Source: Theristus sp. LFF4_11 (lineage: Eukaryota > Nematoda > Chromadorea > Monhysterida > Xyalidae). From it: a stretch of DNA of 64,000 bases. The notes beneath the pieces are model-generated. The model was not told the origin of the DNA, made no database searches, and saw nothing but the letters and a program-made list of their open reading frames with translations. Positions 17,871 through 62,600 of this stretch are shown piece by piece. Both the position numbers and the translations under genes were made by a program. How positions within the stretch are numbered: position 1 is the first letter of the stretch; each line of letters begins with the position of its first letter. Location: the NCBI GenBank assembly GCA_030248135.1, contig JASANC010003482.1, positions 23,975-87,974 of the forward strand. Direction: 5' to 3'.

Positions 17871-20800
17871 TCACGGCACGTCCGGCACAATGGAGAGGGC
17901 GCGAATCTCCGCGAACATTCTGCTGACGTGCTCGCGGTAGGCGTCGTCGGCCATGGGCACCTGCTGCTCGGCCAGCAACGTCTCGCAGAGGCGCACGCTC
18001 GAATCGGCCGAGTAGCTCGCCGCTCGCGACTGCAATACTTTCATTCACTTTATTTATCCTATTTCTCTCTATTTACTTTTATTAATTGTGCATTATTTTA
18101 TTATCTAAATTATATTGTGGGGATTTTAGAGATTTTTTTGTAAGCTTTTGTAATGAATTCATATTTTTGGGACCTTTGGTAGATTTACCATGTACTGTTG
18201 TGATTGTAGGTATGTGTTTTAAACAGGTTTCTAATAAACCCCCATGGGGGTTTATTTTTTGGGGGGATTATTTGAAAACTTGTCGAGGGGGTGGGGTTTT
18301 TTTTGGGGGGGTTAATTTGGGGGGGGGGGTTAATAGAAGTAATACGGTAATGAATAAACGGCGCAAAAATATGGCTCTTATGTACTTGTATCCGTGTGCC
18401 ACATCAGAGATTTGAAAATAGTTACGAAGCAAAAAAGTTTCTCACTGCTTACACAAGGCCATATTCCTCCTTTTATGTGCGTCTCCCGCATTTTTAGATA
18501 ATATTCTGACTTTTACATAAGTCCCAAAAATCGGAGTTTTGGAGAGATGTCACCAGCTTCCATAGCCGATTTACCCAAAATCGTCAGGATTCAGTATCTA
18601 AAATTGCTCACATAGGAATATGAATCTAACCCAGAATCCGTGATCAGCGCATTGAATTACCCTGGACTACACAGGTCTCCTGTTTTTTTTTTGTTTTAGA
18701 CCGACTTCACCAATTTCCGCGGGCGATTCGCCCGAAATCGTCACAGTCATTATCCTAGCATACACACACACACAGAAACTAACCAGAAATTCGTGATCAG
18801 CGCATTGAATTACTCTGGACTGCACAATTTTCTTATTTTTTGTTTTTTGCCCCGATTTCGTCAATCTCCACGGCCGATTCGCCTAAAATCGTAACGATTC
18901 AATATCTAGAGTTGCTTACATTAGAAAACTAACCTAAAATTCGTGATCAGCGCATTGAATTACCCTGAACTACATCATTTTCTTATTTTTTGTTTCTGGG
19001 CCGATTTCGCCAATTTCCACGGTCGATTCGCCCGAAGTCATCACGATTCGGTATCTAGAGTTGCTCACATAAGAAAACGAACCGAAAATTCGTGATCAGC
19101 GCACCGAAGAACCTCGGAATACATTATTTTCTCATTTCTTATTTTTGGACCGATTTCGCCAATTTTCACGGCCGATTCGCCCGAAGTCGTAACGACTTTG
19201 GTTAGCTGGTATTTGTTTAACTTAGGTTTGTTTAAACTAACTATATGTTTGAATTTGAGCTCTTTAGCTGTTCTTAGTTTTAAAACGGTTTTGCAAACTT
19301 GTTTCCTGATGTGAAACTGTCACTGTTATGGTCAAAAACATGGATATTGATGCGATCAACTGGAAAAAATACCCATTTTTCGGCATTTTCTTCACATTTT
19401 TCAACAAATGAAGATCGAATTCAAACTCTGCGTAGTTTTTACCTCAGGAAACGTTGTTGGTTTGTCAAATGACGTTTTCTTGCGCACGCTGAAATTGCAA
19501 ACGTACGTTAAAATGCGCATTTTCTGTCATTTTGTGCGAAAAGGCTAAATTTTGAGCCTTGGGGAGCATCGTAGAAAAAAATAAATGCGAAATTTGAAAA
19601 ATTTAGCAAATTTTAACTTAGAAAATGTTTTTATCATAACAGTCAGAATTTTCAAATCACTGAAACTGCGTACACATTTTATGACATAGCCGAAAAAAAG
19701 GGGTCCACAAGAATAACGTTTTTCTCGTTCAGAATCCATCTTATGCGCACACAGCGTGTGTAAAGCATCGCCACGAAAAAATTTCCAGTGCACACAGCAT
19801 ACCTGTGGACTATCTACCTGTGTGCAGCGGAAAAAATTCTCAACTCCTTTTATGTTCACAATGCGAGGCAAACTAATTTTGGAATTTACGCGCGAGCGAC
19901 GGGCCATATTATGTCTCATCCGCTGTCCGCTTCGCTCCGCTTCGCTCGCGAATGGACATGATTTTGGTTCAAGTCTCTTTGTTCATTTTATTTATCATAT
20001 CACAATACTTGTTGGTTCATTTCTATTGTCACATCTATCCCGGACGATGGATGATTCGTGTTCGATCGTAGTGGTTCCGAAAACTGCCTCTGGCAAAGAA
20101 CTCGCTGATTGGCTGCATTATTGAAAGTGGGACGCCGTCTAATTGGCCTGCATAAAAACGTGGTGCAGCCAATGAGCGAACTGGATTGAAACATTTGAAC
20201 ACAAATCAATCAATTCTGCGGAACATTTCGGCTGCAGCACACAAGTCACGCGAATTTTATTGGTCTCCGCACTACATATGAGGCCGTTTTCATAAGTTTT
20301 CTACAATGCGCAAAATAAAGCGAACGAATGTAATCATAAGCAATAACATCCTGGCTTCAATCCAATCAACAACACACGCCGAACTGTTAAATTATAGGCA
20401 ATCAGCTGACTGGTTGGTGATCACACGTGACGCATGTGTTTCTGTACATATGAAACTCCACCTCTCCACCACAGCAACGCCTGCATAGAGAGCACGCATG
20501 CACCGGCACGGCCAACCAATCAGCTGATTGCCCATAGTTTATAGAGTTCAACTGTACCTCCAAGAACGCGGACGTCTGCATGAGCGGCGCGAGACAGTCG
20601 ACGCTGCTCACATTGAACCCCGTGACGTCCGCAGCCAACATCGCCCGTGTGTGATCCTCCTTGCGAGCGGCGTGCTGCGCCTCGCTTGCCAACTGAAACT
20701 CGAAATGCAATTTTGAAACATATTTCACGCACCAAACTTTTAAGTCAGTCAGTTTTGTTTTGCAGTGTACAGCATTGTGTAAGTGTAAGTACAGTGTAAG

Positions 20801-23466: not shown

Positions 23467-24637
23467 CTGGCCGCGGGCGGACGCGGAGCAAAACTAAAAA
23501 AACATAAACAAAACTTGAAACTGTGTCAATTTGATTGAAACCAAAAAACATGATAATCTTAATGCACCACGCGCACGAGCACGACACGACCCCCGTCGAC
23601 CTAGGGTTGTTAAAAAAAACAAAAATCGTCATTTTTGTTTTTTTTAAAAAAAAAATTTTTTTTTTAATTTCAAAAATCAAAGTTGTGCTAAATCAATCAG
23701 GGAGTCCGAAGAACCACATATGATATGCAAGCGCCTCCCGAATGACTCCCGTATGGCGGAACTTTGCAGATTTTGTTTTGGTGACCTCAATTACCCCTTT
23801 TCCAAACCGTCACCATGCCTCTTCTTGTGTTTTGACCTCCAAAACGTCACTAATTGTCCCCAGCTAAGCTAATGCTAAAGTGAAGACAAACATACCGCCT
23901 TGAAATTCGATCAATTCTTCTGATGGTGTCGCGACGACACGACACGAAGCAGCAACCAGACAACGTAGCGCTTGCAAACGGAGCAGCGAGCACAATCGGA
24001 CGCTCTGCGAGGCGAATCGTCACCTTATCTGCATCGGAAATGGTAGGCTAAGCTTTGGGACGCTCAAAAACTTCATCGCAGATGTTGTCGAAGCCTAAAA
24101 TCAGTCGGTAAAACGGCCCAAAATCGACTGCTAAAGGTTTTACGAGGTATAATCAAAGAAAATTTTTGTTGAACTTTCGAAAAATTGTGCCAAAATTGAG
24201 GTTTTCAGAGCATATTAGAGGAAAATTTTTCGAATTTTTTTTTTAAAAAAAAAATCGGCATTTTTGTTTTTTTTTAATCACTTTTTTTATTAAAAAAAAA
24301 TTTCATTTTTGTTTAACAACCCTACGTCGACCACCTTTCAAAACAATTGCATTTTTTTAAATTAATATAAAAAAAAACTTTTTTAGTTTTTTTTATTTTA
24401 GAAAATCGGGACTTTCTCTTTTTTTCGAACCCCAATTGGCTCTGAAAATGAGATAATCGAACTCACTGCGAATCGAATTAGGGTTCGAATTTTTTTTAAA
24501 AATAATCACAACGTGGCATTATGATTTTGTGCCCAGTTTCGTCTTCGTGTCTCGTGTAAACTTTTTTTTGGCAGAATTTTCTTTACAATTTCTACTTTCA
24601 GGCCAAAGGTCGGCGAGAGAAAATCAAGATTCAAGCG
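23467..24637. promoter_or_regulatory. Divergent intergenic region between BAR-like and AGTRAP-like genes
   Basis: The two genes start in opposite directions from this 1.2-kb interval, so it should hold both promoters. Most of it (23602-24324) is a hAT-like element, so any promoter must lie in the short flanks or inside the element. No TATA or initiator motif could be assigned. Confidence 0.4.
23602..24324. mobile_element. hAT-like non-autonomous transposon in divergent promoter
   Basis: The termini are TAGGGTTGTTAAAAAAAAC and its complement (…GTTTAACAACCCTA). It is flanked by the perfect 8-bp duplication CGTCGACC (23594-23601 and 24325-24332). The interior contains long A/T homopolymers near both ends. 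A central block (TCAAAGAAAATTTTTGTTGA and onward, about 24155-24220) recurs at about 59290-59360. No transposase. Confidence 0.85.
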
Positions 24638-25561
24638 ATGTCGACGATCACCAACCAACTGGACAGCATCGTTCCGCGCAACCTCGACTCGCAGTCCACG
24701 TTGCGCGGCGTTTACTCGGCGCACTTTCTGTTCATCACGTTGACGCTGTTCGGCGCCAGTCAACTGCTGGTCCCGGTCGCCTACTTGTTCTACAATTCGT
24801 TCTTTCTTGCGTCACTGCTCTGGGCGATGGTCGCCGCAAACAACGAGTTTCCACTGTTGAAGGCGTTGGCCTTGAATTTGGCATCGATCCCGTTCGATAT
24901 CGCCGCGTTGGCAATGGGCAGCATTTCGGGTGAGTAAATGTGCATGAGTGTTGCGTTTGTTTGACTGGGGAACTCGGCCGTAATGTGCCACGTCGTTCTT
25001 TTTTCTACGTCGCTCAAAATTGGTGTTGGTTGACGACTTTGATTCAATGTTTTTATTGGTTGTGTTTATGCTAACAACAGTGTCACTTTTAGAGTCTGGA
25101 TAGTTCTAATGTTAAAATTTTTGTGATTTGTTGGTGTTGTTTGTTGATGTTGATCTTCGATCGGCGCACTCTTAATCGAGCGTCAGAGGGACTAACACAT
25201 GGGCGCACCAACACAACGGAAAGCGAACATCTTTCCAAGCGAGCAATGCTGGGCGGAGGGGGGGTGAGGGTCGCACAAGCACATCCAAAAAAGGAAAGCA
25301 AAAGCGAACCCCGGTGCAGGCACGTTCGCCGTGATCGCGGGCGTCATCAATCTCGTGATGCGTCTGTTCACGAGCGCGCTGCTGTGGCGTCTGCGCAGCG
25401 ATCGCGCCGGTGCGGGCGCCCAATTCGACAGCAGTTACCACGACCCGAATCGAGGACCGGCGTTCGGCGGCGCCGGCGGCCCGGCCGACTATTCGTACGA
25501 CATGCCGCCGCCGGCCGGCGGTGCGCGCGTCCACCACGACACGAAACCGATCACGCCTTGA
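24638..25561 (+). CDS. AGTRAP: AGTRAP-like small multi-pass membrane protein
   Basis: Two exons (24638-24929 and 25320-25561) join in phase to give 177 residues, close to the size of angiotensin II receptor-associated proteins. The order is a short polar N-terminus, TM1 around residues 27-50 (YSAHFLFITLTLFGASQLLV), YLFYNSFFLASLLWAMVA, a third segment ALALNLASIPFDIAALAMG and a fourth AVIAGVINLVMRLFTSALLW. A soluble Gly/Pro-rich tail of about 50 residues follows. YLFYN followed by LLW and NL-S---D matches my recollection of the AGTRAP family. AGTRAP proteins are ER/Golgi/plasma-membrane proteins that promote receptor internalisation in vertebrates; the role in an invertebrate is unknown. The donor GG|gtgagt and acceptor gtgcag|G are strong. 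Confidence 0.7.
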
Positions 25562-25619
25562 GAGAATGCAGCCTTCCTGATCCTGATCGTGTATCGCCTG
25601 GTTATTCGAACCGGTCGCA

Positions 25620-25935
25620 GTGAAATGACGTCATTGTGCTCTAAAGGGTCATTCATGAAGCTGTATTTAATGACGCATTGCCATGTTGTAACATTAATAG
25701 CTACGCGGTCATTAAATACTGTTTAATGAATGCCGCTTAAAGTATGCAGCTTTTCGTTCGTAGCAGTCCGGACATTCAGTTTTTTTGGCTGATTTTGTCA
25801 CATGGCAAATTATGTGAAAGGGTGTATTGAAGTGCTATAATTCTAGTGCCTGTGCAAGTTAAGGGTGTTTTAAGAACAAAGATGACGTCATTTCGAAGTG
25901 ACACGTTCGAGTGATTCTACAATATTAAACTACGT
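25620..25935. mobile_element. Nested palindromic elements: family B inside family C
   Basis: The outer arms carry GAAATGACGTCAT (left, 25622) and GATGACGTCATTTCGAAG (right, about 25882), the hallmark of family C. Between 25647 and 25740 sits a family B hairpin (CATTCATGAAGCTGTATTTAATGACG and its complement). It lies in the 3' flank of the AGTRAP-like gene. Confidence 0.6.
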
Positions 25936-26932: not shown

Positions 26933-29900
26933 ATGGTTTATTGGACAATTTTTGCCATTTTCGGGGTTTTATCGAAGGCGATTGGAGGAGAGCGGACCAT
27001 AGCTCGCGGTTTGTCACGACATTTTTTTTGCAATCTTCCACATTCTGCGTAGTGAACATTCATTCGGTGACGGCAATATGTTCCATTGATTCGGAGTTCA
27101 CCAATCACCATTGTTGAAATGAGCCTAGTATCTAGATAGAATCAGCGTCCCACATGTGATGTCTGCCAGTCCAAACTGCAGTTCACCTTCATACAATTTT
27201 GGCTGATTTTTGTATGCATCCAACGAGTGCCTTTGTTTCCAGACTTGTCGGACGCGATCGTGGTCCGGCCTGTTCGTGTCGAGACCGAGCTGGACGTGTG
27301 GCGTTGCGCCGCGCTGCCCCGAGAGCCGTATCTGCTGTTCGCGTCGCAGGAAGTGACGTTGAACCTGACGAACTCGTATGAAATCTACAAGGTCGTGCCT
27401 GTTTGAAGTTTGCCAGAGAACGGCGGTTTCGTTCACTGTAAATTAGTTGAATCATTGGGTGTTCCTGAATTCGGCTGGCTGATAGATAACTTGCTTGTTA
27501 CCGGTGCATATAACAATACTTGTTAACTATACCCGATGCAAGAAACGAACGGTGATTTTTTGGCGATGCTTTTAGCCAGGGCTAACCTAAAGCGTACAGA
27601 ACGCCGTCGAGTAGGGCGTCCATTGAGTTTTGCTCTGTCATAAAGTGCCTATACACCCCTCGGCGGGACTCGATCCCCGAACGCACAGGCACAAGAGTCC
27701 AGCGCGCTACCACCCAGGCCACGACGGTGGCAATCAGCATCGTACCAATACAATTACGTTTCACAATTTGACAAAAAGTGGAAGCGATCACCGATCATTA
27801 GAAAGAGAATGATTGATTTTGTTAAATGTCACGTCAAAAACGTTTCTACCCTGAACGTTCACGAATATATATATCCGCGCAGGCGCACAATGAGTCCGCT
27901 CTCGTTGACGCCTACGAGCAGAATCGACGCTTCTTCGGGGTGTTCCGCCGCGTGGCAATCTGGCAGAGCAAGCAGGTGCCCGTGTTCCACGAGACGTTCA
28001 TTGGCATCGAGACGAGCGAGCCGTATGCGATACGACTCAAGATACGACGTTCGTTGGTGTTCTTGCTGTTGTAGTGTTTGTTTTTGGACACTGACTTCCA
28101 ATTGAAGTGAGTCAAGCGTTTTAGAAAGAAAGTGCGACCTATTTTTTAAACGTGTCCCACTGAAATGACGTCATGTGCCGCCAAACATGCGCTTGTCGTT
28201 CACAGCAAACCAGACCTTCCGTTTAGCCGATTTCTTCCCGTAAACAAATGATGAATGTCGAAACAGTCGCACCAAAGTGACATTTTAGTGCCTGTACTTT
28301 GACAAACGGGCGTTTTTAAAGCAAATGACGTCATTTTAGTGCGGACACGTTTGAATAAATCCACAATAACTGAATAATTGTAACAAAATGTGGTTTTACC
28401 TCGGCCTCGGTTGGTAGTGGTTTCGCATTGAGTTGACTCTGTAAGCGACGTTTTAATTGACACATATTTTAGAATTTTTTTTTGCCACATAAAAATCTTC
28501 CATAAAAGGAATCTATACGAATCTTCATAATTCTCACATACAAAAGTTTCCAACTTTCGGTTTCAATCAATTTCAATTGAGCAGCAGATGCATTTTCACC
28601 AACCTTCCAGTCTGCGTTGTTGCGACGCACGTTTCTTCCCATGTTCACAGCTTTCAGTTTCAGTCAACTTCAACTAAACAACTGACCTACACATTTTTCA
28701 CGGACTGCAGATTTCGACGTGCTTCAGTTTCTCGTGTTCACCGGTGGCATTCTGTTGTTCGTGTCCGCGCGCGGCGTCGCACGACACGCCGTGTTCTACT
28801 ACGGCGCCGGATGCACCGTCGGAGTCGCAGCATCGTTGCTCATCCTCGTCTTCCTCGTGTACAGAGCACTGCCAAAGGTCCTCGGGGGGGGGGGGGGCTG
28901 GGCTAGGTCTTATTTGGCTCGGGTCACACACAGTTAATACGGCCAAGGCCAATTCATGCACGACGTTAAACAAAGTTTAGGTTGAACTCCAAGAAAAAGA
29001 AACAGAATATTAAATAAAATTACAAAAATTACAATTAGAAACTGAAAAATTACACGTTTTCTCATTGCAACGTTGATTTTGCAGCGCTCGTTTGCATACT
29101 CGCTGCTGATTGGCGGCTGGTCGTTTGCGCTCTACGTTGTCTATCATGTCTGGCAGAATCTGCAGTCAGTGCTGATGCTCTATCAGAAATGGGTCGCTGT
29201 GTATCTGGTGAGTTGTGCAGGCAGCTGATTGGCTGAAATGTTACATCTGCGCCAATGAGCATGTGGGCAAATTTGAAGATGCAACAACTGCTGAGCTTTT
29301 ATTGTTATTTGTTATTTATGTTGTTTTAGTGCGCTGATTGACTGTATTGCTCTCCAACTGTGTAGTTCCAAATTTATATGTGAAAACGTTGTCTGCATTT
29401 GGGTTCAGTTTGAAAAACGATTTGCTGCAACTTCTGCTTGATTCGCAGTAATTCTGGGCACCATAAAGCAGTATTTAGTGACGCGCAGCTACTGCTTCAT
29501 GAATGCCGCTGTTGGTTTTGGATTGACACAGCGTCCGCTTGACACGCGTGCGATTTCGCTTAGCAAAACTGAAACGGAATCAACGCACAACATTGCTGCA
29601 AGCAACCCTATTCCCATCCATTCAATCCAACCAATGAAAGCATCCGTTCGCCCGATTCCCACAGATCACAGTGACGGTCGTCTCATTGGCCGTCTGCTAT
29701 CGCGTCGGTCCACCGTCGAACGATCGCTCGCTGAATCTCTGCCAATGGAGTCTGCAAGTGATCGCCTTTCTGCTGGTCTACCTCGGCTGCCAAATTGAGG
29801 AGATCTCGCTGTGCGTGATGGCCGTGCTCTTGGTCGTCTACAATATTCCGGCCGAGTTCTGGCGGTTCTCAAGGATACTTTGGTAAGTTTTTTTTGGTTG

Positions 29901-34840: not shown

Positions 34841-37800
34841 TCACCAGGTCGTCGTCGTCGGCTCCTTGCGCGTGCGAAAGATCGTCTCGCGAATGCTGTG
34901 ATTCATGAAGCCGTACAGGAACGGATTCGTGATGGTCGACCACATGGCCAGCCAGTGACAGACGAGGTACAGGAACCGATGATATCGATCGGTGGTGTCG
35001 ACGAACTCGAAGTCGATCATCAGACCAAACACGACGAACGGCAGCCACAGTGCGGTGAACGTCACGAGCACCTGCGCGGTGGCGAGTTGTTTTGCTCGTT
35101 TTATTGGTTGCGGTTTTTTTGTTTTGTTGATTTTCAACTCGATGCAAGTTTCCATGCATGCTCCGGCCGGGCATTCGAAATTGCACCAGTGACTGCAATC
35201 TTTATGACTCCTGGTCACTTTGGGAATTGTTATCACTTGTCACGTTTTAAGGCGCATTCCTGAAGCAGTATTTAGTGACGCGTAGCTATATGTTTTTTAA
35301 AAAACATAGCTGCGCGGTCACTAAATACTGCTTCATGAATGTCCCTTTAATGTTTTGAATGGTCACGTCACGCATGACACTGGTGTTCCGTTCATTCGTG
35401 CATTCTGGTTCGTAGCGCCAAAGAAGAAACCAGCAATCACCAACCAGTAATTTATGAGCTAATTTTTTAAACGTGTCCCACTGAAATGACGTCATGTGCC
35501 GTTAAACATGCGCTTGCCGTTCACAGCAAACCAGACTTTCCGTTTAGCCGATTTCTTCACGTAAATGGTGAATATCGAATCGGTCACACCAAACTGCAAT
35601 TTTAGTGCCTGCACTTTGACAAACGGGCGTTTTTAAAGCAAATGACGTCATTTTAGTCCGGACACGTTTGAATAAATCCACAATACCATGGTCAACGTGG
35701 TGACAGTATTCAAGAGTCGTTGCTGGGTGACACGATGCCGCTCGCTAGCGATCGATCCACCAATCGCCGTGCCGCCACTGGCCGTGTTCAACTGAGTGCA
35801 CGTGCTGAAGCGAACCGTTGATCCACCGCTGCCCGAGCGCGACGAAACTGTGTTGGCACAGGGCACCTCCATCGTGCCACTTCGGCCAGTGTCGGCGTTG
35901 CTCGTTAACGCTTGATTTTCATTCAAGTCGTCGTCATCGGCTTCGTCGTCATCGTCGTTGTCGACATTGTTGTTGTTGATCACGATCTCAATCACCGACG
36001 ACTCCTTTCGCTCGTTCTCGTCCGCATTCATCGTTGTTTCGTTGCTGTGATTGAACGTCACCGCGAACGACGGCGCCGACGTCGACGCCTCCGCCGCTAC
36101 ACGGTGTTTCTGCGGTTTGTTCTGTTGTCTGCGCTTCTGGCTGTTGTTCTTCACCATCAACACGAACTTGTGATGTTGACTTTGATTCAGCGCGCAGACG
36201 GGCGCTGACTGCCGTTGCGGCGCGCCGGCGCAATGCGCCACTTCTCGTGTCGCCGTCACTGAGATCGATCGTGTCGCTGGCGTGCGCGTCTCTGTGAACG
36301 CTGGCGGCGCCGCCGACTCGACCGATGTCGTCGTCGTCACGATGCGCGTCAACGCGGCGCACGACTTCGGTCGCCCCAACAGCGGCGGTTTACTGTCGTT
36401 TTGATCCACTACGGGAGAAAAACATGTGTGTGCCGATTGTTTCGAATGGTGCGCATGTTAATTTTGTTTAGAGACAATTTTATAAGAACGCACACAAACA
36501 TACACACGGAATGATCTATGGGCACAACTGCGAGCTTAGTTTCTTGCTTGAAAATCAAGCAATTTGCAATTTTAAGAATCAGAGACAAGGTGAAACCTTC
36601 ATGATTGGGGACATCGATTTTCAAACAAAAAACTCGAAGTTGTTTTCGTCCCTCATGGCCCGTGCCCCGTACCTTGTGTTTGTGGGTTTTTCAATGAAAT
36701 TGTTGTTAAAAATCAACATGCTCAGATTCGAATGAATCGTAACATTGTTTCGAATGCTTGTCACCAGGAAACGTTATTACGAATTTTTAGAGAAAAGTAC
36801 GCTCGCGACGGGCGACATCGCTCGCTGTGCGTATCAAGGGGGCTTTCATGAAGCAGTATTTAGTGACAGCGTAGTTATGTATGCTTTTAACACAGCTGAG
36901 CGTCACTATTGTAAATACTGTTTCATGAATGCCGATTAACAAGAAAAACTGTTGAACAAAACGAAGCGGCTGTCAAATCGGAATGACTGAGTGACTGACT
37001 TTCAACGACGATCTGCATGGCGCGGTCAACGGAGCGTGCTTTCAGGCGTGTACTCGGTGCACGCAGTTGACTCGTGCCTGACACAGCCGATGACTGGTAG
37101 TCCGGTTGTGAGTTGTCACCTTTCAACGGCACTTTCAGTGCGTCCGCCGTGCTTTCGCCGCCGCTGTCCGAAATCGCGCGTATCTGTTTCGAAAACGACC
37201 GACTAAGTCGAACGATCCGTTTCGCCAGCTCTGACGGCGAATGGTTTTCCCGTTCATTGGTTCGTTTCTGTGCCGACGGCGTCGTCGCAATCAGCGGCCA
37301 CGAGTCGCGCTGCTGTGCGTCAGTCAGTCGACGTATCGCTTTGCTGTTGCTATAACCGTTGCTCTGGTGCACGGCGGCATCGTGATCGACCACATTGCTC
37401 GTTTTATTGTTCTTCAGTGGTTGCCAAGGCTTAAAATAAGATTGTTTTGTTGGTGTTGGCAGCACAATGATCTTAGGAAGTGCCATTACCGTGATCGCGG
37501 GCTCGGAGCGTCTGGTTTCGCGCATGTCGTGCACCTCAACGATGGGCATCATGGCTGTCGTCCGCTGTTGTGTTGTTTTCGTGACCGTCAGCCCACTCGC
37601 GAAAAACTTGTCGCGCGTTTCAATGCTCTGTCGTATTTGAAACAAGAAAAAAATATGAGGAGTCGAATAAAAGTTGAAGTTAAAGTTGAAGTTGTATCAG
37701 AGTGTTCTTCTGATGGGGTGCGTGTTGAGTCGCTGGGGCGGGATACGACATGGTTCATCAATGGAGCAGTGTACGACGGAACAACACGCTGTGATAATAT

Positions 37801-39718
37801 TATCTTTCATTTTGGCACCGAGACTCAATGCGCGCACGGATAGCACGTGCATGCAGAACGCTGGAATTCAAAATTGGGTCCAAGTTCCGTAAATAAAGCC
37901 GGGTAACTTAGGCTGCTTTGAATTGCCACATAGGGATTGAAACTGGTTTCCTTTCTACGTATGCAATCGCATACAGTCGCAGAATTAAAAAAAAATCGCT
38001 ATAATAAACTCGCACAGACCTGTTTTACAGCGCCGACGACCGCCTGATAGAAATAGGCGACCATGCAGAGCGGCAGCAGAAACTGCAGCACCACCGCGCA
38101 CAGTGCGTACACGCGCCGCAGCAATTGGCCGCGCGGTCCCGTCTCCGTCCAGACCTGATACGACGAGAGTGAACGCTATGGCAACTGAGTCCACAAAGTT
38201 TAACAACAACATTTTGTTTTTTGTTGTTTTTTTGCGTTTTATTATGTTGGAATTTTTATTAGGCGATGTTTTTAGCCAAGGCTAACCCTAAGAGGCGTAC
38301 AGAACGCCGTCGAATAGGGCGCTCATCGAGTTTTCTCTCTCATTCAGTGCCTATACACCACTCGGCGGGGCTCGATTCCCCGAACGCACAGACAATAAAT
38401 AGTCTAACGAGCCACCACCAAGTCACGAGGGTGTCAAATGAATACAAACACTACAAACATATAATCAGCGCAAAGCACGAAAAAAATGTAAACAACCTCA
38501 ATGCAGAACGTGCCGCAGAATGGATAAACTTCGATGTAACTTTGGAAGTACGTCGGCGCACCGCACATGAACATGATCACGGCTGTGTAATGACAACAGA
38601 GATTGCCATAATGAACGTACAGTCGAACTCAAAATTATAGGCAATCAGCTGATTGGTTGTTGATCACGTGAGGCATGTTTTTTGTGCAGGTGGAGGCGGA
38701 GTCTGTCCTGATACAGAAAGCCATGCATCACGTGATGACCAACGACTCAGGTGATTACTTTTAATTTCTAGTTCATCTGTAAACTATGTATTGATCAGCG
38801 AACATGATAATAAATAATGGGCAACAGTTGTCATACCAGCAGTCGCGAGAAAAATGGCGGCCAACTTCAGGTTGCTTGGTCGACTGTTCTTGCGAAGCAC
38901 TATGGCACGATATCGATCGTAGCCGATGCCGGCCATCACGTACGTCGACGTGTACAACGTGGAACCCTGTGGCAGTAAAAGCTCGTTTGCACGTGCAGTA
39001 TGCGCATACGACACAGCACGGCACGGCACGGCACGTCACGTCACTTTAGGTTCCGTGTTATTGCATACTATCGTTCATACCTGTCGTACGTCGACGTACG
39101 TTTGCAGCTCCAGTTTTTACACAAGAAAGGCAAGGGAGTCATGTAAATCAAACAATGCTCGGTTCATCCGCTACCAGCAACACAATTGTTTTCAATCGTG
39201 CTCGCATGTATTTTGATGTGCATATTTCTCGTTTCGCCAGTTGACTTTCAGTTGTACGTATAACGTACACTGTAAGCTGTACACTGTACAAGTGCTTGCT
39301 GTTAGCTGGTTTTACTGAAAAAAAACGAACGATCACCACACCTCGCGCAGATTTGGAAAAAACCGACCAACGAACGAACCTGCGCGGCCGGCAGCAGTTT
39401 ACACGGCCAATAGCCGAGGTTCCATACGACTGCGGTCGTCGCCCACGGCGTCACGACGCCGCTGGTGATGATCAGGAATAAATCGGTGACGGCAAGCACG
39501 AAGATCGACCACTGGTGAATGTTGTGCAACTTGCGGTGACGCGCGATCGCGTAGATCACGAACACGTTCATCAGCACCGACACGACGACGGTGACCGAGT
39601 AGACGAGCATGATCAACAGCCGAATGGCCGGCTTGAACGTGACGTCGTTCGAGACGCTCATTAGCATTTCGATCTGCATGCACGTGCCGTTTGCGTCGTC
39701 TGTGTCGTTGCTGTCCAT
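34841..39718 (-). CDS. Rhodopsin-class peptide GPCR with very long third intracellular loop
   Basis: Seven coding exons in phase, 756 residues from MDSND: 39380-39718, 38837-38966, 38497-38582, 38020-38154, 37000-37627, 35687-36408, 34841-35071. The N-terminus has two N-glycosylation sequons (NDT, NGT). TM1-TM3 run through LLIMLVYSVTVVVSVLMNVFVIY, FVLAVTDLFLIIT and CKLLPAAQ, with DRYR at about residue 130 and the ECL2 cysteine in VYPFCGTFC. TM5 is ALCAVVLQFLLPLCMVAYFY, TM6 VLVTFTALWLPFVVFGLM, TM7 HWLAMWSTITNPFLYGFMN (NPxxY). The HWLAM…NPFLYGFMN ending is typical of NPY/tachykinin/RFamide-type receptors; the ligand is not predictable. Exons 5-6 give a third intracellular loop of about 450 residues, rich in Ser, Thr, Asn and acidic runs, far above the usual 20-60. 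An acceptor just upstream of the ATG implies a 5' untranslated exon beyond 39740. Confidence 0.88.
35250..35352. mobile_element. Palindromic hairpin, family B (GPCR intron)
   Basis: CCTGAAGCAGTATTTAGTGA-type arm, a TATGTTTTTTAAAAAACATA loop-proximal stem, then the complement ending TTCATGAATGTCC. It is nearly a full hairpin over about 100 bp. Copies are at 25647, 29453 and 36838. Confidence 0.75.
35463..35686. mobile_element. Palindromic MITE, family C, at a GPCR 5' splice site
   Basis: A 224-bp element with TGACGTCA in both arms. On the minus strand it begins TATTGTGGATTTATTCAAAC directly after the last exon base plus G. The donor of the exon ending at 35687 (ATG|GTATTGTGG) is therefore formed by the element's terminal repeat. 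Compare the same terminus at 28376 and 45474. Confidence 0.8.
36838..36941. mobile_element. Palindromic hairpin, family B (GPCR intron)
   Basis: TTCATGAAGCAGTATTTAGT arm and AATACTGTTTCATGAATGCC counterpart around a short loop; same family as 35250-35352. Confidence 0.75.
38255..38430 (-). mobile_element. tRNA-derived SINE, copy 2 (GPCR intron)
   Basis: The same body as 27560-27735: GGCGATGTTTTTAGCCAAGG, CGTACAGAACGCCGTCGA, GTGCCTATACACCACTCGGC and GCTCGATTCCCCGAACGCAC (B-box-like on the minus strand). The A-box side is more decayed. Confidence 0.7.
38618..38781. mobile_element. Palindromic MITE, family A (GPCR intron), well-preserved ends
   Basis: It starts TACAGTCGAACTCAAAATTA, then AGGCAATCAGCTGATTGG and GATCACGTGAGGCATG. 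It ends with CATGCATCACGTGATGACC and a terminal …GTTCATCTGTA. TA at both ends fits Tc1/mariner-type targeting. Confidence 0.8.
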
Positions 39719-39784: not shown

Positions 39785-39938
39785 TGCAGTCGAACGCTAA
39801 ATGAAAGGCAATCAGCTGGTTGACTGGTGATCACGTGATACAGTTGCTGTAACGGTGGAGTTTGTGCTGCCACAGAAAGCATGCATCACGTGATCGCCAA
39901 CCAGTCAGGTGGTTGCCTATAAGTCGAATTCGACTGTA
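39785..39938. mobile_element. Palindromic MITE, family A (upstream of GPCR start)
   Basis: Ends TGCAGTCGAACGC and complement of TACAGTCGAATTC, with AGGCAATCAGCTGGTTGACTGG, GATCACGTGATAC and CATGCATCACGTGATCGCC inside. It lies about 70 bp beyond the GPCR start codon, probably in the 5' intron or promoter. Confidence 0.8.
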
Positions 39939-45100: not shown

Positions 45101-45880
45101 TGAAGTGAATTTCCGATTGTCAAAAAAACTCATTTCATGTCCATTTTATGTAGTACAATGTACCTGATATTCCTGTTCAGCTCTTGTGATTTTCGTTTTC
45201 CCCTTGTCAGTTGTTCCCTTGTTGCTGAGGCGCAACGCGTTTCCTTTCGAATCCTTTTTCGACTTCTTGTGATCTGTGACAGTCACGTCATTATGTGCGC
45301 GTTATAAGTTTTCAAAGTTTATAATTTTCACATACATAATAACGACCAACTCTATAATATATCGAACTAGCTGATTGGTTGGTGGTCACGTGATGCATTT
45401 ATTCTGCGCAAACTAAACTCCGCCTCCACAGCAATTGATGCACAGATCGCGTGCATCAATCAACCAATCAACTATTGTGGATTTATTCAAATGTGTCTGG
45501 ACTAAAAGGACGTCATTTGCTTTAAAAACGCTCGTTTGTCAAAGTACAGACACTAAAATTTCAGTTTGGTGTGACTGATACGACATTCACCATTTGTTGA
45601 CGAGAAGAAATAGGCTAAACGGAAAGTCTGGTTTGCTGTGAACGACAAGCGCATGTTTTGCGGCACATGACGTCATTTCAGTGGGAGACGTTTGAAAAAA
45701 TATGTCATAGTTGAATATATACTGCAATCAACAAGATGCCTCACCGGTTGTTGCAAGCTCATTCAGACCGTCTTTGATGTGCTGGTTAGGTCGATCCTTT
45801 TTCACTCGCTCAACTTTCGCACCGTCTGAGTTTAACGCCGTCAAAGCTGCGGACACCAAAAACAGCAACAAGAGGTTCAT
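42181..45880 (-). CDS. Secreted M4 (thermolysin-type) zinc metalloprotease precursor
   Basis: Twelve exons join in phase to 537 residues from MNLLLLFLVSAALTALN (signal peptide): 45745-45880, 45164-45273, 44909-45040, 44668-44826, 44456-44542, 44282-44360, 44043-44203, 43697-43782, 43337-43566, 42771-42880, 42472-42599, 42181-42376. An in-frame ATG 12 codons earlier (45916) would bury the signal peptide. Residues about 45-210 are the inhibitory propeptide (FTP type: VYGSQLTD, IIYVDKNDHLTAKIAYLLEV). The catalytic domain begins around GTGPGGNEKIG. The zinc ligands are HELAH (377-381) and E401 in GGVNEAFADM, spaced 20 residues from the second His exactly as in thermolysin. The catalytic His is in SVHKSSGIFNKAFY (H459). 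All active-site residues are present, so an active secreted endopeptidase is predicted. M4 enzymes are chiefly bacterial; an intron-rich animal gene is unusual. Confidence 0.93.
45341..45710. mobile_element. Composite: family A MITE abutting family C MITE (M4 intron 1)
   Basis: Family A (45341 to about 45473) has CTAGCTGATTGGTTGGTGG and CAACCAATCAACTA. Its right end runs directly into TATTGTGGATTTATTCAAAT, the terminus of an inverted family C copy. That copy extends to about 45708 with ACGTCATTTGC and TGACGTCATTTCAGTGGGA. One element appears to have inserted at the end of the other. Confidence 0.7.
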
Positions 45881-47399: not shown

Positions 47400-49012
47400 A
47401 AGTTGTGCGCCGACCTGTCACGCGACTCTGCCGGCGCTGTGCTCAACCGATTTCAACGATCTACGGCTCAATCAACTCAGAAAACAACCGGCAACACGTC
47501 AACGTGTCGTTTGTGGTTTGTTTCGGCGGTTTTTTAAAAATCGACAAAATTCCAAACCACCATAAATTGGTGTTGTGTGTTTTTTCACGAATTTTTTATT
47601 GCACACAAACAAATGTTGAATAAAACAAAAACCAACTACAAACGACACATCATCGTGTTCCGGATGCTCTGCTGAGTTGATTGAGCCGTCGATCGTCAAA
47701 ATCGGTCGAGGAAATCGTGATCTAGGCGACGTTATGTGTTGGCAAATGATGCATTTCACGACATGTGTGTTGTGCGCCGACCTGTCAGGCGACTCTGCCG
47801 GCGCTGTGCTCGACCGATTTCGACGATCGACGGCTCAATCAACTCAGCAAACAACCGGCAACACGTCAATGTGTCGTTTGTGGTTTGTTTCGGCGGTTTT
47901 TTAAAAATCGACAAAATTCCAAACCACCATAAATTGGTGTTGTGTGTTTTTTCACGAATTTTTTATTGCACACAAACCAATGTTGAACAAAACAAAAACC
48001 AACTACAAACGACACATCATCGTGTTCCGGATGCTCTGCTGAGTTGATTGAGCCGTTGATCGTCAAAATCGGTCGAGGAAATCGTGATCTAGGCGACGTT
48101 ATGTGTTGGCAAATGATGCATTTCACGACATGTGTGTTGTGCGTCGATCTGTCACGCGACTCTGCCGGCGCTGTGCTCGACCGATTTCGACGATCGACGG
48201 CTCAATCAACTCAGCAAACAACCGGCAACACGTCAATGTGTCGTTTGTGGTTTGTTTCGGCGGTTTTTTAAAAATCGACAAAATTCCAAACCACCATAAA
48301 TTGGTGTTGTGTGTTTTTTCACGAATTTTTTATTGCACACAAACCAATGTTGAACAAAACAAAAACCAACTACAAACGACACATCATCGTGTTCCGGATG
48401 CTCTGCTGAGTTGATTGAGCCGTCGATCGTCAAAATCGGTCGAGGAAATCGTGATCTAGGCGACGTTATGTGTTGGCAAATGATGCATTTCACGACATGT
48501 GTGTTGTGCGCCGACCTGTCAGGCGACTCTGCCGGCGCTGTGCTCAACCGATTTCGACGATCGACGGCTCAATCAACTCAGCAAACAACCGGCAACACGT
48601 CAATGTGTCGTTTGTGGTTTGTTTCGGCGGTTTTTTAAAAATCGACAAAATTCCAAACCACCATAAATTGGTGTTGTGTGTTTTTTCACAAATTTTTTAT
48701 TGCACACAAACAAATGTTGAATAAAACAAAAACCAACTACAAACGACACTTCATCGTGTTCCGGATGCTCTGCTGAGTTGATTGAGCCGTCGATCGTCGA
48801 AATCGGCTGAGTAAATCGTGATCTAGGCGACGTTATGTGTTGGCAAATAATGCATTTCACGACATGTGTGTTGTGCGCCGACCTGTCAGGCGACTCTGCC
48901 GGCGCTGTGCTCGACCGATTTCGACGATCGATAGCTCAATCAACTCAGCAAAGCATCGGGAACACGGTGATATGTTGTTTGTGGTTTGTTTCGGCGGTTT
49001 GTTTTGTTTTCA
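47400..49012. repeat. 367-bp satellite, about 4.4 tandem copies
   Basis: Landmark ACATGTGTGTTGTGCG recurs at 47761, 48128, 48495 and 48862, exactly 367 bp apart, with very few differences between copies. The first copy is cut on the left (about 47400) and the last one breaks off near 49012. Open frames of 75-104 codons on both strands repeat with the unit but shift frame (367 is not a multiple of three), so they are not a repeated gene. Confidence 0.9.
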
Positions 49013-56628: not shown

Positions 56629-59600
56629 CTATCGCAGCGCCCGTATCAGCTCGCCGCACAGCTGCTGGTAGGCGCCGTGGTCGCCGTCGATGTGTCGAAA
56701 CGACAGCTCGCACGTCTCGTCCGACAGCGCACGGGCAGCACAGGCGCCGATGCCGATCTCTGCGCGCACGCCGTCGTCCGTCTCCACCGACAGTCGACGC
56801 AACGGCCTCAGCAGGTCGCCGTCCTCATCATCCTCATCCTCGTCCGCCTGCTCGCCGAACGTGATCGAGCGACGTCGCAGCGTGTCGCGCACGATCGCGA
56901 GCACCGAGCGCGGCGCCAACGCCACGGCCATCGTCGTGCGGATGGCGGACGACGGCGGTGATCGGTGATCGTGCGCGTTCGCGGCCGCGTGCCGACTGAG
57001 ATTCACCGGTGACCCTGCGACCGTGGTGATCGACGGCAGTAGTCCGTCGGTGTCCTGCAGCTCGATCACCGAACGAAACTGGTGATGATGATGACTCAGT
57101 GGTGTTGCTTTGTGGACGTTGTGCTGGTGGTTCTTGTTGGTGTTGTAGTATTGCGTCAAGTTCACGGGTGACTGCAAGGACAAAAGCAATTCAGGATGAT
57201 ACGATAAAAGGACAGACGAACGCTGCGATGCGGTAATCAATTGTAAACGCCGTTTTCCGAATTGTTTTCAAAAATTATCAAATGGATCACGTGATACTTC
57301 AAACAGGGTCACGACATACACATCTCTAGAACAAGGCTTCATATGACGCACCCACCCCGACCCGATAGATGAAGACCAACAAAAAAGAAAGTGACTCAAT
57401 TCGAAGAAACGCAGCCAATCAATCAATCAAACCAGCAACACATTCACCTGCGCGTGCGGCATTTCAGTGTCCTGCTCAGCAATACTATGCAACTGTAACG
57501 GGCCTTGTGGCGGCGGCGGAGGACTGCTGCTGCTGCCTCCGCCGCCGGACACCCGCTCAACAGCGCCTCGAATTGACCCGCTGCTGTTCGTTGGCGAACC
57601 GACGCTTAGACTGCTGAAATGCGACAATTGTCCGGACAAAGAAAAGATTTTCTGTTGCAAAACTGAGCACTTTGCAGTGCACATTTACTCGAACGTGTCG
57701 GACCGAGATGATGTCATTTTGCTTCAAAAACGCTTGTTTGTCACGCACAGGCAGTATAAATTCAGTTTTAGTTGTTCATGTGAAGGGCATCACAGCCAAC
57801 CGGAATGTGTGCATGAAAACACGAATGTTCCCCGGAGCACATGACGTCATCTCCGGTCGGGGACACGTTCGAAGCACACAATCAATCATTTACACAAACA
57901 ATTGACCACACGGCACAAACACACAGGCACCGGTGCTTAGCACGAGAGACAGACCCCGGCGAGATCTGATGCATGTTGATCGGCGAGTGCTGCGCCGGCG
58001 CCGCCGTGCCATCGGCCTTCACTTTCAGCATCGTCTGCAGGTTCGCCATCGGCATCGGCGCGTTCGTCGTCGCCGCCGTCGTCTCCGGGTCAGAGTCGTC
58101 GGCGTCCATCTGTAAAACAGAGCCAACGTGTTGCACAGTTCTGTTGTAACAAATATTCGCACGCACACGACCATGACGTTTCGCTTGCTTTGACTAAAAC
58201 CCCTTTTTCTTTGTTCTCCGTAACTCGCGTTGGTGCATTTGGATTTGGATACCGTACGGTACACCACATTACACTGTTTGGTCGCGTATGAGCCTGCGGG
58301 ACCAAGTCCCGCCGACGGGCGTAAATTTAGGCATGTAATATTTATGGTCAGAAAACCACTTGATGGTCGCCGCCCACTTGACAAACGTTCTGAGCGCGAT
58401 TTCTGGCGTTCACATGAACCAGAAATAAAAAATTCCAGCCATACAAGTTTGGTTGGTGCAGTAGCGCAGGCTACCAAAAACTAACATCGACTTTTTTTGC
58501 TTGCTTTCATTGATGCATTCCCCAATTTCATCAATAATCTTGAATTTCTTCAGTTTTTTTGACATCGTTTGTTTTGTTTGCATAATGGAAGTTTTGTGAT
58601 TGTGTCCACGTGAACTGGCCGTGAGGCTTACAAAGGAAGTTGAAATCTTGAAAAAAGCACCCGGAGGCCGCGAACGAACGCACCTGTGCGCTGTGCTGGT
58701 CGCGCGCGGCCGCCTGCTCGTAGAGCTGCTCGAGGTGGCGCATTTGCGCGGCGCTGATCGCGGCCATCGGACTGGACGCACGACGCAGCCCGCCGGTGCC
58801 CGCCGTTAAACTCGGACCCGCCGGGAAGCCCGCTGCGAAAGGCGACAGAAAATGATACAGGGTGAAGTTTTTGGTGATGAATGACACTATTCGATGTGAA
58901 CGAACGCGAAACGCTACAGTTCTGGGGCACACCTAGAGATGTCAAGAAAAAAAAAATTTCTATTTTTTTTCTTTTTAAAAAAAAAAATTTTTTTTTTAAA
59001 TTTTTTTTTTTGGTGATGAATGACACTATTCGATGTGAACGAACGCGAAACGCTACAGTCAATAACTGGGCGGTGTGATCACGCTGACGACACGAGGGAA
59101 ACAGCAACGAGTCAGTTGCAGTGGCAGACAGTGCAATTTCCACCTTTCGAGATCCTGAAAAACGATGCGTAAAGAGTTCTCTGTTTTTTTTTGTATGCGA
59201 GATGCGATCATCGAAAATATCACCAAGGCTGAAAACAGTCGATAAATCAATCAGAAACCACCTGCAGCGTGAGACTAAGAGACAAGGTAGTCAAAGAAAA
59301 TTTTTGTCGAACTTTCGAAAAATTATGCCAAAAACGGCATTTTCAGGGCACATTAAAGTGTAAACAAATTAAAAAAAAAAAAAAAAAAAAATGTCCTTTT
59401 TTTTTGATAGTACCTAAAGTCTCTGAAAATGGTAATGCTACCATCGAAAATATAAAAAAATTCTTAAACACCAGAGAGACGTCGGCTCGAATGTCACTCG
59501 GAAGTGTAAACAAATTTCTGAAGTCTTTTTAAAAGGGCCGAAAGCGACCGCGCAAAAACGGTCAGACTCGAAACAGAAACAAGAAAGACAACCGGCTCCT

Positions 59601-62600
59601 AAAAGAACGCACGCGCACCAGTCAAGCGACGCGGCGACAAGAGCGACGGTCGCGCGGGCGGCTGCGTGGCGGCCCAGTCGCTGGTGCGTCGTTTGCGGCC
59701 GAACCGCGCCATGTACGCCAACGCGTCCGTCGGCACGTCGCCGTGCTGCGACAGGGCACCGCCGCCGGCGCATGCGGACGGCGCCGCTTGGCTCGACTGC
59801 AAGACGGATCAGTCGTACGTGGCCAGTTCGCATTACAATGCAATCATGATGATGCAATTCTTGAGTGGCCATTTCGCATTGCAATTACATATTTACAACC
59901 CGTTCACACGTTTTTTTTCACGTCCGATCTCCGGACCGAATAAAGACGCGGTAAGTGCCATTCAGTTTTCTTTGTGTACCCGCCACGCACAGAAAACTCA
60001 ATGGCATTGTCGCCGGAGGCGAGAATGCGAACGAACGTTCCAGTCCCGTGAAGACAGTGCACCTCTGGTAAATCACAGTGATGTTGTGCGGTCAAAAACA
60101 AGCGCACACGCATAAGCTGACATGTAAATCGGATGGCGTGCGGTGCGGTGCGTGTTTGAGCAACATCTTCAAACCAGAACTTTACACTTTCTATGCAACC
60201 GGAGGCTAAAACAAATCACAACAAAGAAAACCAGCACTACAACACCACCCAACGATTATTTAACCGAAAAATAGGCGTCAGATCAGAGACACCTGAGAAT
60301 TCTGTAAAAACCCAAACCAGCACTCCCTACTGCACGAATACAATCACGTGACGCATGCTTTGTGCGGGCGTCACTGTGAGAGCGGCGTCTGTCCTGCATA
60401 GAAAACACGCAGCACGTGTGATCACCGACCAATCAGCTGACTGTCTGTAATTTTCCGACTGTACCTGCGATTGCGCCTGGTGCGCATCAACCGTGAATAA
60501 GGCGGCATTATTGGCGGTCGCTGGTGAGTCCAGCATCGAGTCGCCTTCCATGGTCGCGAGCTGCTGATTCAGTGCGGCAGCGGAGATCGTCGTCGGGCTG
60601 GTCAACAACGCCGACAGATAGACACCGCCGTCTGAGGCACGTCGCATGCCCGTGTAGCCGGTCGGCGCTTGCTGGTAGCCTGCAAGGCACATCCATGCGC
60701 ACAACATTCCATCTCACAACACAACGTCGTCTCACAGCTCATTCATGCGGCGAAATACAGCAATCCAGCACGTCATGTTCTCTTTAGAACATGTGCTCGT
60801 TCATACAAGCCAGCCATAAGTAATGCGCAACGCAGATAGCGATCGAGCTCAATCGTGCTCCAGTGTTAGAAACAGAAACTGTTTCATTCGGCACCGTCGC
60901 CTGGGTGGTGTAGCGCGTCACACACTTGTGTCTGTGCGTTCGGGGGATCGAGCCCCGCCGAGCGGTGTATAGGCACTGAGTGACAGAGAGAAAAACACGA
61001 TAGGCTCGCTGCGTTCCCTGTACACCTGTCTCGGTTAGCCCCGTCTTAAGAACATCGCCTAAAATCAGCGCACTTGCAAATGAAAACCGGTTCGAAACCA
61101 GTCAGCTGTGCTGTGCACACAGCCAAAAACTGCTGCGGCTTAGCGACGAACGCACCAGGCGTCAGATTCGCGGTCGGACTGAGCCACGCCTGCTGCGGCA
61201 CGTTCGCGTTGTTCGCGCTCATGTCGATCGGCGCGAGCCCGCCGGCGGCCGCGTGTTGGCGCATTTTGGTCAACTCCGACAGCAGACTGCTCGTCTGGTC
61301 GGCATTGGCGTGCTGCTGCTGCTGTTGCACGGCGGTCAACAGGTTGAGCTGGTTGTTGTGCATGTGGTACAGCGGGTACGGCCCGTTCATGCTCGGCTCC
61401 TAGTGCAAACGAAGCACATCGATTGGACGACTTTGGAATTACAATTGAATTGATTTGAGAATGGATCGGTCGATTTACGAATGAATCTGTTGTTTCACTT
61501 AAAAATCGATCGATTAAAACTGCGGAACATGAACAAATCGCAAACTAGCAACACAAATGGCAACTGAGCAACACAAATCACAAGTGAGCGGCTGCCCCAT
61601 CCCCACCCCCCCCCCCCACCCAACGCCCCAGTGTACCTGCAGTGCGCCCAGGCGCAGTCCGCACGCGGACATTTGATGCAACTGCAGCAGTTGACTCTGC
61701 TCGGCGGTGCCGGTCAGCGCTGCGGGCGCACGGAACGCACTGGCCGCCAACAACGACGTCTGCTGGTGCGTGTGCTGCTGCTGTTGCTGTTGCTGACCGA
61801 CGTGCGATGGAATGATGTATGGCGCAGCTGTATTGGTGCATGCACAGGTTGTATTGTATTGTCTATTCGTTTCGCAATGCAACTCAGTGCGTTTGCAGAT
61901 TGCGGGAAAAACCATCGCTCCATGCTTGACGCGGCATTTCAGAATTGTCCAACTGTCGCGGTGCCATCTAAGGCGCAGCATTGGACGTCGGGCATCCGCC
62001 CGCCTGCGCATGCTGATCCGTGCCGCGACGCATTACGAAGGCTTGCGGCAATGTTTCTCACCGTCGTAAACTGTGCGACGGTTTGGCCGGAACGTGGCGG
62101 TGCACGTGCCGCCATGGGCGATGTGCACGCGGCCGGTTGACGCCACGGAGACTTGCGGCACAATCAATGTTCACTGCATGGTTGCATGGCAAGTGCTGCA
62201 CCACTTGGGCAGGCGGAAAGTGCAACACGTTGCCCCAACACCGTTATCAGCACCATAAATTCACCATATGGCCGTAAATTCACCATGTGCACGCAGGCTC
62301 CACCCACGTTCCACCCACACCATCGCGCGCTGATTCGACCAAAGGCGTCTCGCAATAAAACCAATCCAAAACTAGGTGGGTGGGATGTATCGAGTCTCTT
62401 ACAGTTCTGCGACTGAACGCGTTTGCAGACGTGCGGCGAAAAGAAAAACGCACGAACCGAGTGCGGCCGGGCCGAGCGAATGCCGCCGTGACATCATCGG
62501 CCCGCCTCTTGTCGGCCGTGCACTCGGCTGCTGCTGCTGCTGTGCTGCGGCGTGCGTCGCGCCGAGCGATGCGCCTGAATCACGACGACGCCGTCGGTTG

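Follow-up and report, generated by a model that had tools for sequence, protein, structure and literature searches.

Results

A MITE terminus at the probable donor of a gene in the window

We analyzed a stretch of 64,000 nucleotides of the Theristus sp. LFF4_11 genome, referred to here as the window, in which the end of a transposable element appears to form the start of an intron. The gene concerned lies on the minus strand. Its upstream exon (20558-20692) has an acceptor, TTTCAG, on its 5' side, is an open frame, and ends ..LMQTSAFLE in phase 0. On the minus strand, the last bases of this exon read GAG and are followed by the donor GTACAGTTGAACTC, so that the junction is ..GCGTTCTTGGAG/GTACAGTTGAACTCTATAAACTATGGGCAATCAGCTGATTGGTTGG. 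The putative 5' splice site, GTACAGT (20551-20557, minus strand), is composed of a host G, the TA of a target duplication, and CAGT from the end of the element. The 13 bases at 20544-20556 match the pattern TACAGT[CT][GT]AACTC exactly, which bears out the original prediction that the donor of this exon is the terminus of a family A palindromic MITE. The MITE copy extends over 20375-20556, one TA included, with no strand assigned, and contains an inverted repeat (20388-20417 and 20512-20541) that is 90% complementary. The near terminus is intact. The left limit, at about 20375, is approximate because the far terminus is decayed; by eye, the TA at that end reads TG on the gene strand.

The intron that would begin at this donor spans approximately 2.5 kb (18030-20557, minus strand), and the MITE fills just its first ~180 nt. 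It has a phase 0 donor, and its acceptor, TATTGCAG, precedes position 18029. The proposed last exon (17874-18029, minus strand) encodes SRAASYS..ALSIVPDVP followed by a stop, and its phase matches that of the upstream exon (0/0). We scored coding potential with a codon score trained on 689 codons from the window, using a cutoff of 6 for a positive call. The window exons were part of this training set and were therefore re-scored with their own gene or exon excluded. Under these conditions the last exon scored +32.6, the highest of the six frames. The upstream exon scored +19.0; its best antisense frame has an equal score but contains a stop.

The frame of the upstream exon continues for 51 codons into the element before it meets a stop, and an exon that simply read into the element and ended there would give a shorter protein. 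We consider this quite unlikely, given the well-scoring, in-phase last exon downstream and the clean splicing geometry at the same family A terminus in other genes (see below). The extended and spliced products could both be present as alternatives. The MITE-derived donor is likely to be used as a splice site in this gene. We say likely rather than proven because the label originally given to the gene, BAR, was not confirmed in any database. There was no Pfam hit to a BAR family (the best lines, Seryl_tRNA_N at 0.0084 and Vps5 at 0.019, were all below the cutoff), matches among chains of solved structure were not significant (APPL2, 0.17-0.19), and no homologue was found at an E-value of 10. 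The end of the last exon presumably resembles the end of BIN3, for which the database searches gave no match. A genome-wide search for alleles or paralogues of the exons recovered only the exons themselves, and there is therefore no element-free allele for comparison.

A second donor in the window begins with the identical family A terminus (donor positions 20557 and 60464). Here a minus-strand exon (60465-60679) ends ..VDAHQAQSQ at AG/GTACAGTCGG. It scored +34.3 with the exon excluded from training, and a Pfam search with it gave no match. The adjoining decayed family A copy (60335-60463, no strand assigned) is one of the 76 flexible matches described below; its left limit is approximate because its far terminus is not recognizable. 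The original prediction had counted two further cases of this kind, one of them from a family C. The case at 60465 was located, and the family C case was not found when the window was read by eye. Of three copies that had been cited as intact, the one at 38618 is exact and those at 39938 and 63893 carry one mismatch each.

The window contains several other features. Another palindromic family, with the inner sequence AAATGACGTCAT, is present at 25600-25910, 28150-28350, 35470-35665, 45490-45690, and 57690-57860, and reading the window by eye revealed no donor case for it. An array with alternating inverted 89-nt arms and a period of ~367 nt occupies 47435-48991. Two plus-strand genes were noted, one AGTRAP-like (24602-25561; E = 4e-4, below the cutoff) and one of the NEMP family (27245-28877; E = 5e-15). 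An Rfam search of the window gave no match at gathering scores, and the SL1 leader was absent at up to one mismatch.

Family A is an abundant TA-flanked palindrome

Further copies of this TA-flanked palindrome are found across the window. In the 159-Mb genome there are 3905 exact family A termini (1963 + 1942 on the two strands), compared to 4 + 7 hits for a reversed-pattern control. The inner 21-mer of the element has 5960 hits (2988 + 2972) at up to two mismatches. Located far ends are mostly 130-190 nt from the near end, and there is a longer form of 770-800 nt. Family A thus has the properties of a MITE: it is short, has long terminal inverted repeats, and is present in high copy number. 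TA is found at both ends of copies (for example, at loci L014 and L166), as expected for a TA target duplication. CAGT termini are a habit of the Tc1/mariner superfamily and are widespread in these elements. Judged from the TA and the terminus alone, family A, with termini TACAGTCGAACTC, is probably a Tc1/mariner-like MITE; it shares with such MITEs the TA duplication, the palindromic terminal inverted repeats, and termini starting with CAGT. At the donors described here, positions +4 to +7 are derived from the element, and the GT comes from the host and the target duplication.

Homology supports family A donors on both sides of the intron

For four introns outside the window, the peptide from the two exons joined at the family A donor aligned to solved proteins with no gap where the exons meet. 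The matches were to an ETHE1-type protein (L010, E = 1.9e-18; ETHE1 itself, 2.4e-18), mGluR5 (L012, 1.4e-28), the nAChR beta-2 subunit (L177, 2.7e-22), and SLC37A4 (L183, 2.5e-14). In a fifth, weaker case (L080/L190), the joined peptide spans the Ig_3 profile of an Ig domain (1.1e-6), and the best matches of solved structure are restricted to the upstream exon. The five introns are 334, 254, 246, 249, and 263 nt long, and in all five the acceptor lies outside the element. Where the far end of the element was located, the intron continues beyond it for 177 nt (L010), 93 nt (L012), 60 nt (L177), and 86 nt (L190), with acceptors ending in TTTTCAG, TTTTCAG, ATTTCAG, and TTCACAG, respectively.

At other loci the match covered the upstream exon only: SNF at L161 (3.2e-18), Cnd3 at L023 (9.5e-6), and RNA_pol_L at L179 (9.8e-5). 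Two of the ten peptides of this set, L163 and L102, had been recognized by eye only and gave no Pfam match at an E-value of 0.1. In a second set of ten upstream peptides, nine had no Pfam match at this threshold and one had a weak match (0.077).

Sequence context of family A termini

The base preceding the terminus was G at 1005 of the 3905 exact termini (25.7%), compared to 1260 of 5458 TA dinucleotides in the window (23.1%). AG at positions -3 and -2 was raised generally (312 of 3905 termini vs. 244 of 5458 window TA). Among these AG-N contexts, AG-G accounted for 63 of 312 termini (20.2%) and for 42 of 244 AGNTA sequences in the window (17.2%). G was less frequent at termini with AG before it than at those without (odds ratio 0.71, p = 0.02). 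The 63 AG-G termini are thus close to the expectation from context, indicating that family A has no overall preference for donor-like sites. A bias of family A for AG/GTA was considered and rejected, since AG-G is not enriched among the 3905 termini compared to the other AG-N contexts. As a separate observation, AG-N is ~1.8 times as frequent before family A termini as before window TA, with a ratio of 2.1 for AG-G and of 1.7 for the other three combined; this excess is a target preference.

Coding sequence is found upstream of donor-like termini more often than of control sites

We read all 63 AG-G termini: 30 of them within loci of 2-3 kb, 32 in short stretches, and one in the window. The looser AGG matches numbered 76, and in 44 of them, counted by hand, the terminus was altered. 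We fetched 36 of these decayed places; the other eight were seven apparent duplicates, judged by their matched strings, and the window copy. Controls were termini preceded by AGH (the first 48 of 249 intact termini, and 40 of the 46 decayed termini among the first 100 of 284) and ordinary AGGTA sequences. After exclusion of the window site, sites with near-identical flanks were collapsed, leaving 52 of 62 intact AGG, 35 of 36 decayed AGG, 46 of 48 intact AGH, 39 of 40 decayed AGH, and 118 of 148 AGGTA sites.

Coding sequence was detected upstream of 23 of the 87 distinct AGG sites outside the window, compared to 8 of 85 AGH sites (p = 0.005) and 9 of 118 ordinary AGGTA sites (p = 0.0004). In a set of sites at any terminus, collapsed in the same way, 1 of 30 was positive. 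The excess was significant for decayed copies, with 14 of 35 AGG sites positive vs. 5 of 39 AGH sites (p = 0.015) and vs. the AGGTA sites (p = 2e-5). It was not significant for intact copies alone (9 of 52 AGG sites vs. 3 of 46 AGH sites, p = 0.13; vs. AGGTA, p = 0.10). The terminus was changed, by hand count and without statistics, in 44 of the 76 AGG matches and, for AGH, in 46 of the 100 matches listed first out of 284.

The classifier makes errors in both directions. Some positives are false: 8 of 85 AGH sites scored positive, and of the 23 AGG positives, L037 appears antisense on inspection and L032 lies within an exon. Conversely, L010, L012, and L161, all supported by homology, have scores below 6. 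At L037 and L097, which are near-identical loci, the terminus appears by eye to be antisense to a trypsin-type exon, near the acceptor of that exon.

The original prediction held that coincidence was an unlikely explanation for such junctions. Taken over the genome this view stands, with the qualification that the excess of coding sequence is carried by the decayed copies. If the true donors were elsewhere and the terminus merely abutted coding sequence, then the near-compositional frequency of the AG-G context and the lack of a significant excess at intact copies alone would both be expected. However, such an arrangement would not give gapless alignments over the exact junction in four proteins, nor an excess of coding sequence over both the AGH and the AGGTA controls, and we regard it as highly unlikely. 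From the exon alignments and the codon scores, the MITE-derived donors are probably used in RNA. The larger share of coding-upstream sites among decayed copies fits with selection keeping the terminus TACAGT at used donors.

Insertion into existing introns compared to creation of introns

The original prediction had offered two routes to such donors: the MITE inserted at the TA of a donor that already began GTA and rebuilt it, or it created the intron boundary in the manner of introners. The junctions are gapless, and 60-177 nt of intron with its own acceptor lies beyond the element; therefore, these elements appear to have inserted into existing introns rather than to have created them. The four gapless introns, and more weakly the fifth, favor the first route. 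We think it very probable that introns with GTA donors were there first, that the MITE entered at their TA, and that its CAGT end rebuilt the donors.

Under the second route, the element would have entered a continuous exon and supplied the splice sites for a new intron. One locus resembles this. At L032 (G000:C1630), where the match is near 1060-1075, what looks like a single coding frame is split by a ~770-nt relative of family A; immediately beyond the far TA the upstream frame resumes, and its next 46 codons have a codon score of +10.3. By arithmetic alone, splicing from TACA/GT to GAG/TTCGACTGTA would leave 12 additional nucleotides, in frame and stop-free in any frame. A broken gene would explain L032 equally well, and the L032 peptide has no Pfam match; we regard a new intron and a broken gene as both possible.

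The remaining evidence points away from creation. In the introns checked on both flanks, the acceptor is outside the element in five and noncoding intron is left beyond it in four. We examined the frame following the element at 66 AGG loci (L009-L038 and L153-L188), skipping sites with an upstream score below 1. Thirteen had a located far end, and removal of L037 left 12. In 11 of the 12, the frame that follows the element failed to score as coding; three of these 11 (L031, L035, and L166) stay open for 45-50 codons. An introner in the strict sense is an intron created by insertion of the element and composed of the element and its target duplication. This does not apply to the four introns in which the far end of the element was located; L032 may be an exception. 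Introners would also be expected as many near-identical introns in one genome, inserted at donor-like sites in genes. On this feature the evidence is mixed: shared intron starts do occur, with 23 of 87 AGG sites coding upstream, but the full set of termini shows no enrichment of AG-G. Overall, we regard creation of the introns by the element as very unlikely.

Empty-site donors and donor accessibility

We rebuilt empty-site donors by joining the flanks of the element. They match the donor consensus in part only, and G at +5, read by hand, was present in 5 of 13 donor-like sites vs. 4 of 15 other sites. In predicted folds of hand-picked sites, the donor was equally accessible at 17 donor-like sites and 20 other sites (mean unpaired, 0.295 vs. 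0.268), and sequestration of the donor in a hairpin was rejected on this basis. Neither result lends support to donor replacement.

Discussion

Replacement of existing donors could proceed as follows. A family A MITE would transpose into the TA of an existing intron that starts G-TA. Since the target TA is duplicated, the start of the intron would stay GTA. The terminal CAGT of the element would take over positions +4 to +7, and the resulting GTACAGT would still be a working donor. The remainder of the element would sit inside the intron, the original acceptor would remain in use, and insertions of this kind would be tolerated. Copies at donors would keep TACAGT as the rest of the element decays, and donor copies would therefore become relatively enriched among old copies. 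The repeated landing of the MITE on intron starts leaves genes without visible breakage. GTACAGT perhaps works by pairing with U1 in a bulged register, GTA(C)AGT, in which a single base would bulge out and the rest would pair like GTAAGT; such registers at donors are described in a review (PMC9311317, citing Roca 2012).

A more far-reaching idea, which we consider unlikely, is that family A is a splice-repairing transposon, with a CAGT terminus adapted to, or at least permissive for, regenerating a 5' splice site when it lands on G/TA. If so, intron starts would be a safe haven for this TA-targeting family, and the stop-free 12-nt arithmetic of the terminal inverted repeats would allow exonic copies to be spliced out almost harmlessly, in which case L032 may represent an intron that is just arising. 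Many animals could show the same behavior, given how common CAGT termini are among Tc1/mariner elements.

If donor replacement, the reading that we favor, is correct, DNA transposons can repeatedly rewrite the donors of existing introns, apparently at little cost to the gene, by a path different from the intron birth associated with introners. The four introns with gapless alignments, the weaker fifth, and the additional candidates provide a test set. They also call for caution: a scan that searches the starts of introns for a common element sequence can confuse donor replacement with intron gain. Among the open-licence papers listed in our searches, we found no report of recurrent donor rebuilding by a TA-targeting MITE at its target TA.

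Related systems are known. In C. elegans, Tc1 insertions are spliced out using sites at or near the ends of the element. As in our case, a TA-targeting element is removed by splicing, but the Tc1 events involve exonic mutations and are imprecise, whereas the family A termini appear to be fixed donors of old introns. In mulberry, MITEs are associated with splicing changes, alternative splice sites, and exonization, as described in part of PMC6593561; the outcome there is alternative splicing or exonization, compared to replacement of a constitutive donor at the target TA here. According to passages of PMC9860276, many introners resemble DNA transposons, with terminal inverted repeats and/or target duplications, and some take their 5' splice site from the duplication; the approach described there excludes most secondary insertions of transposable elements within preexisting introns. 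Family A shares with introners the terminal inverted repeats and the use of the target duplication. As described in the same passages, introners create the intron, whereas here the intron appears to have existed already, with its own acceptor, and the element would rewrite the donor from +4 onward only.
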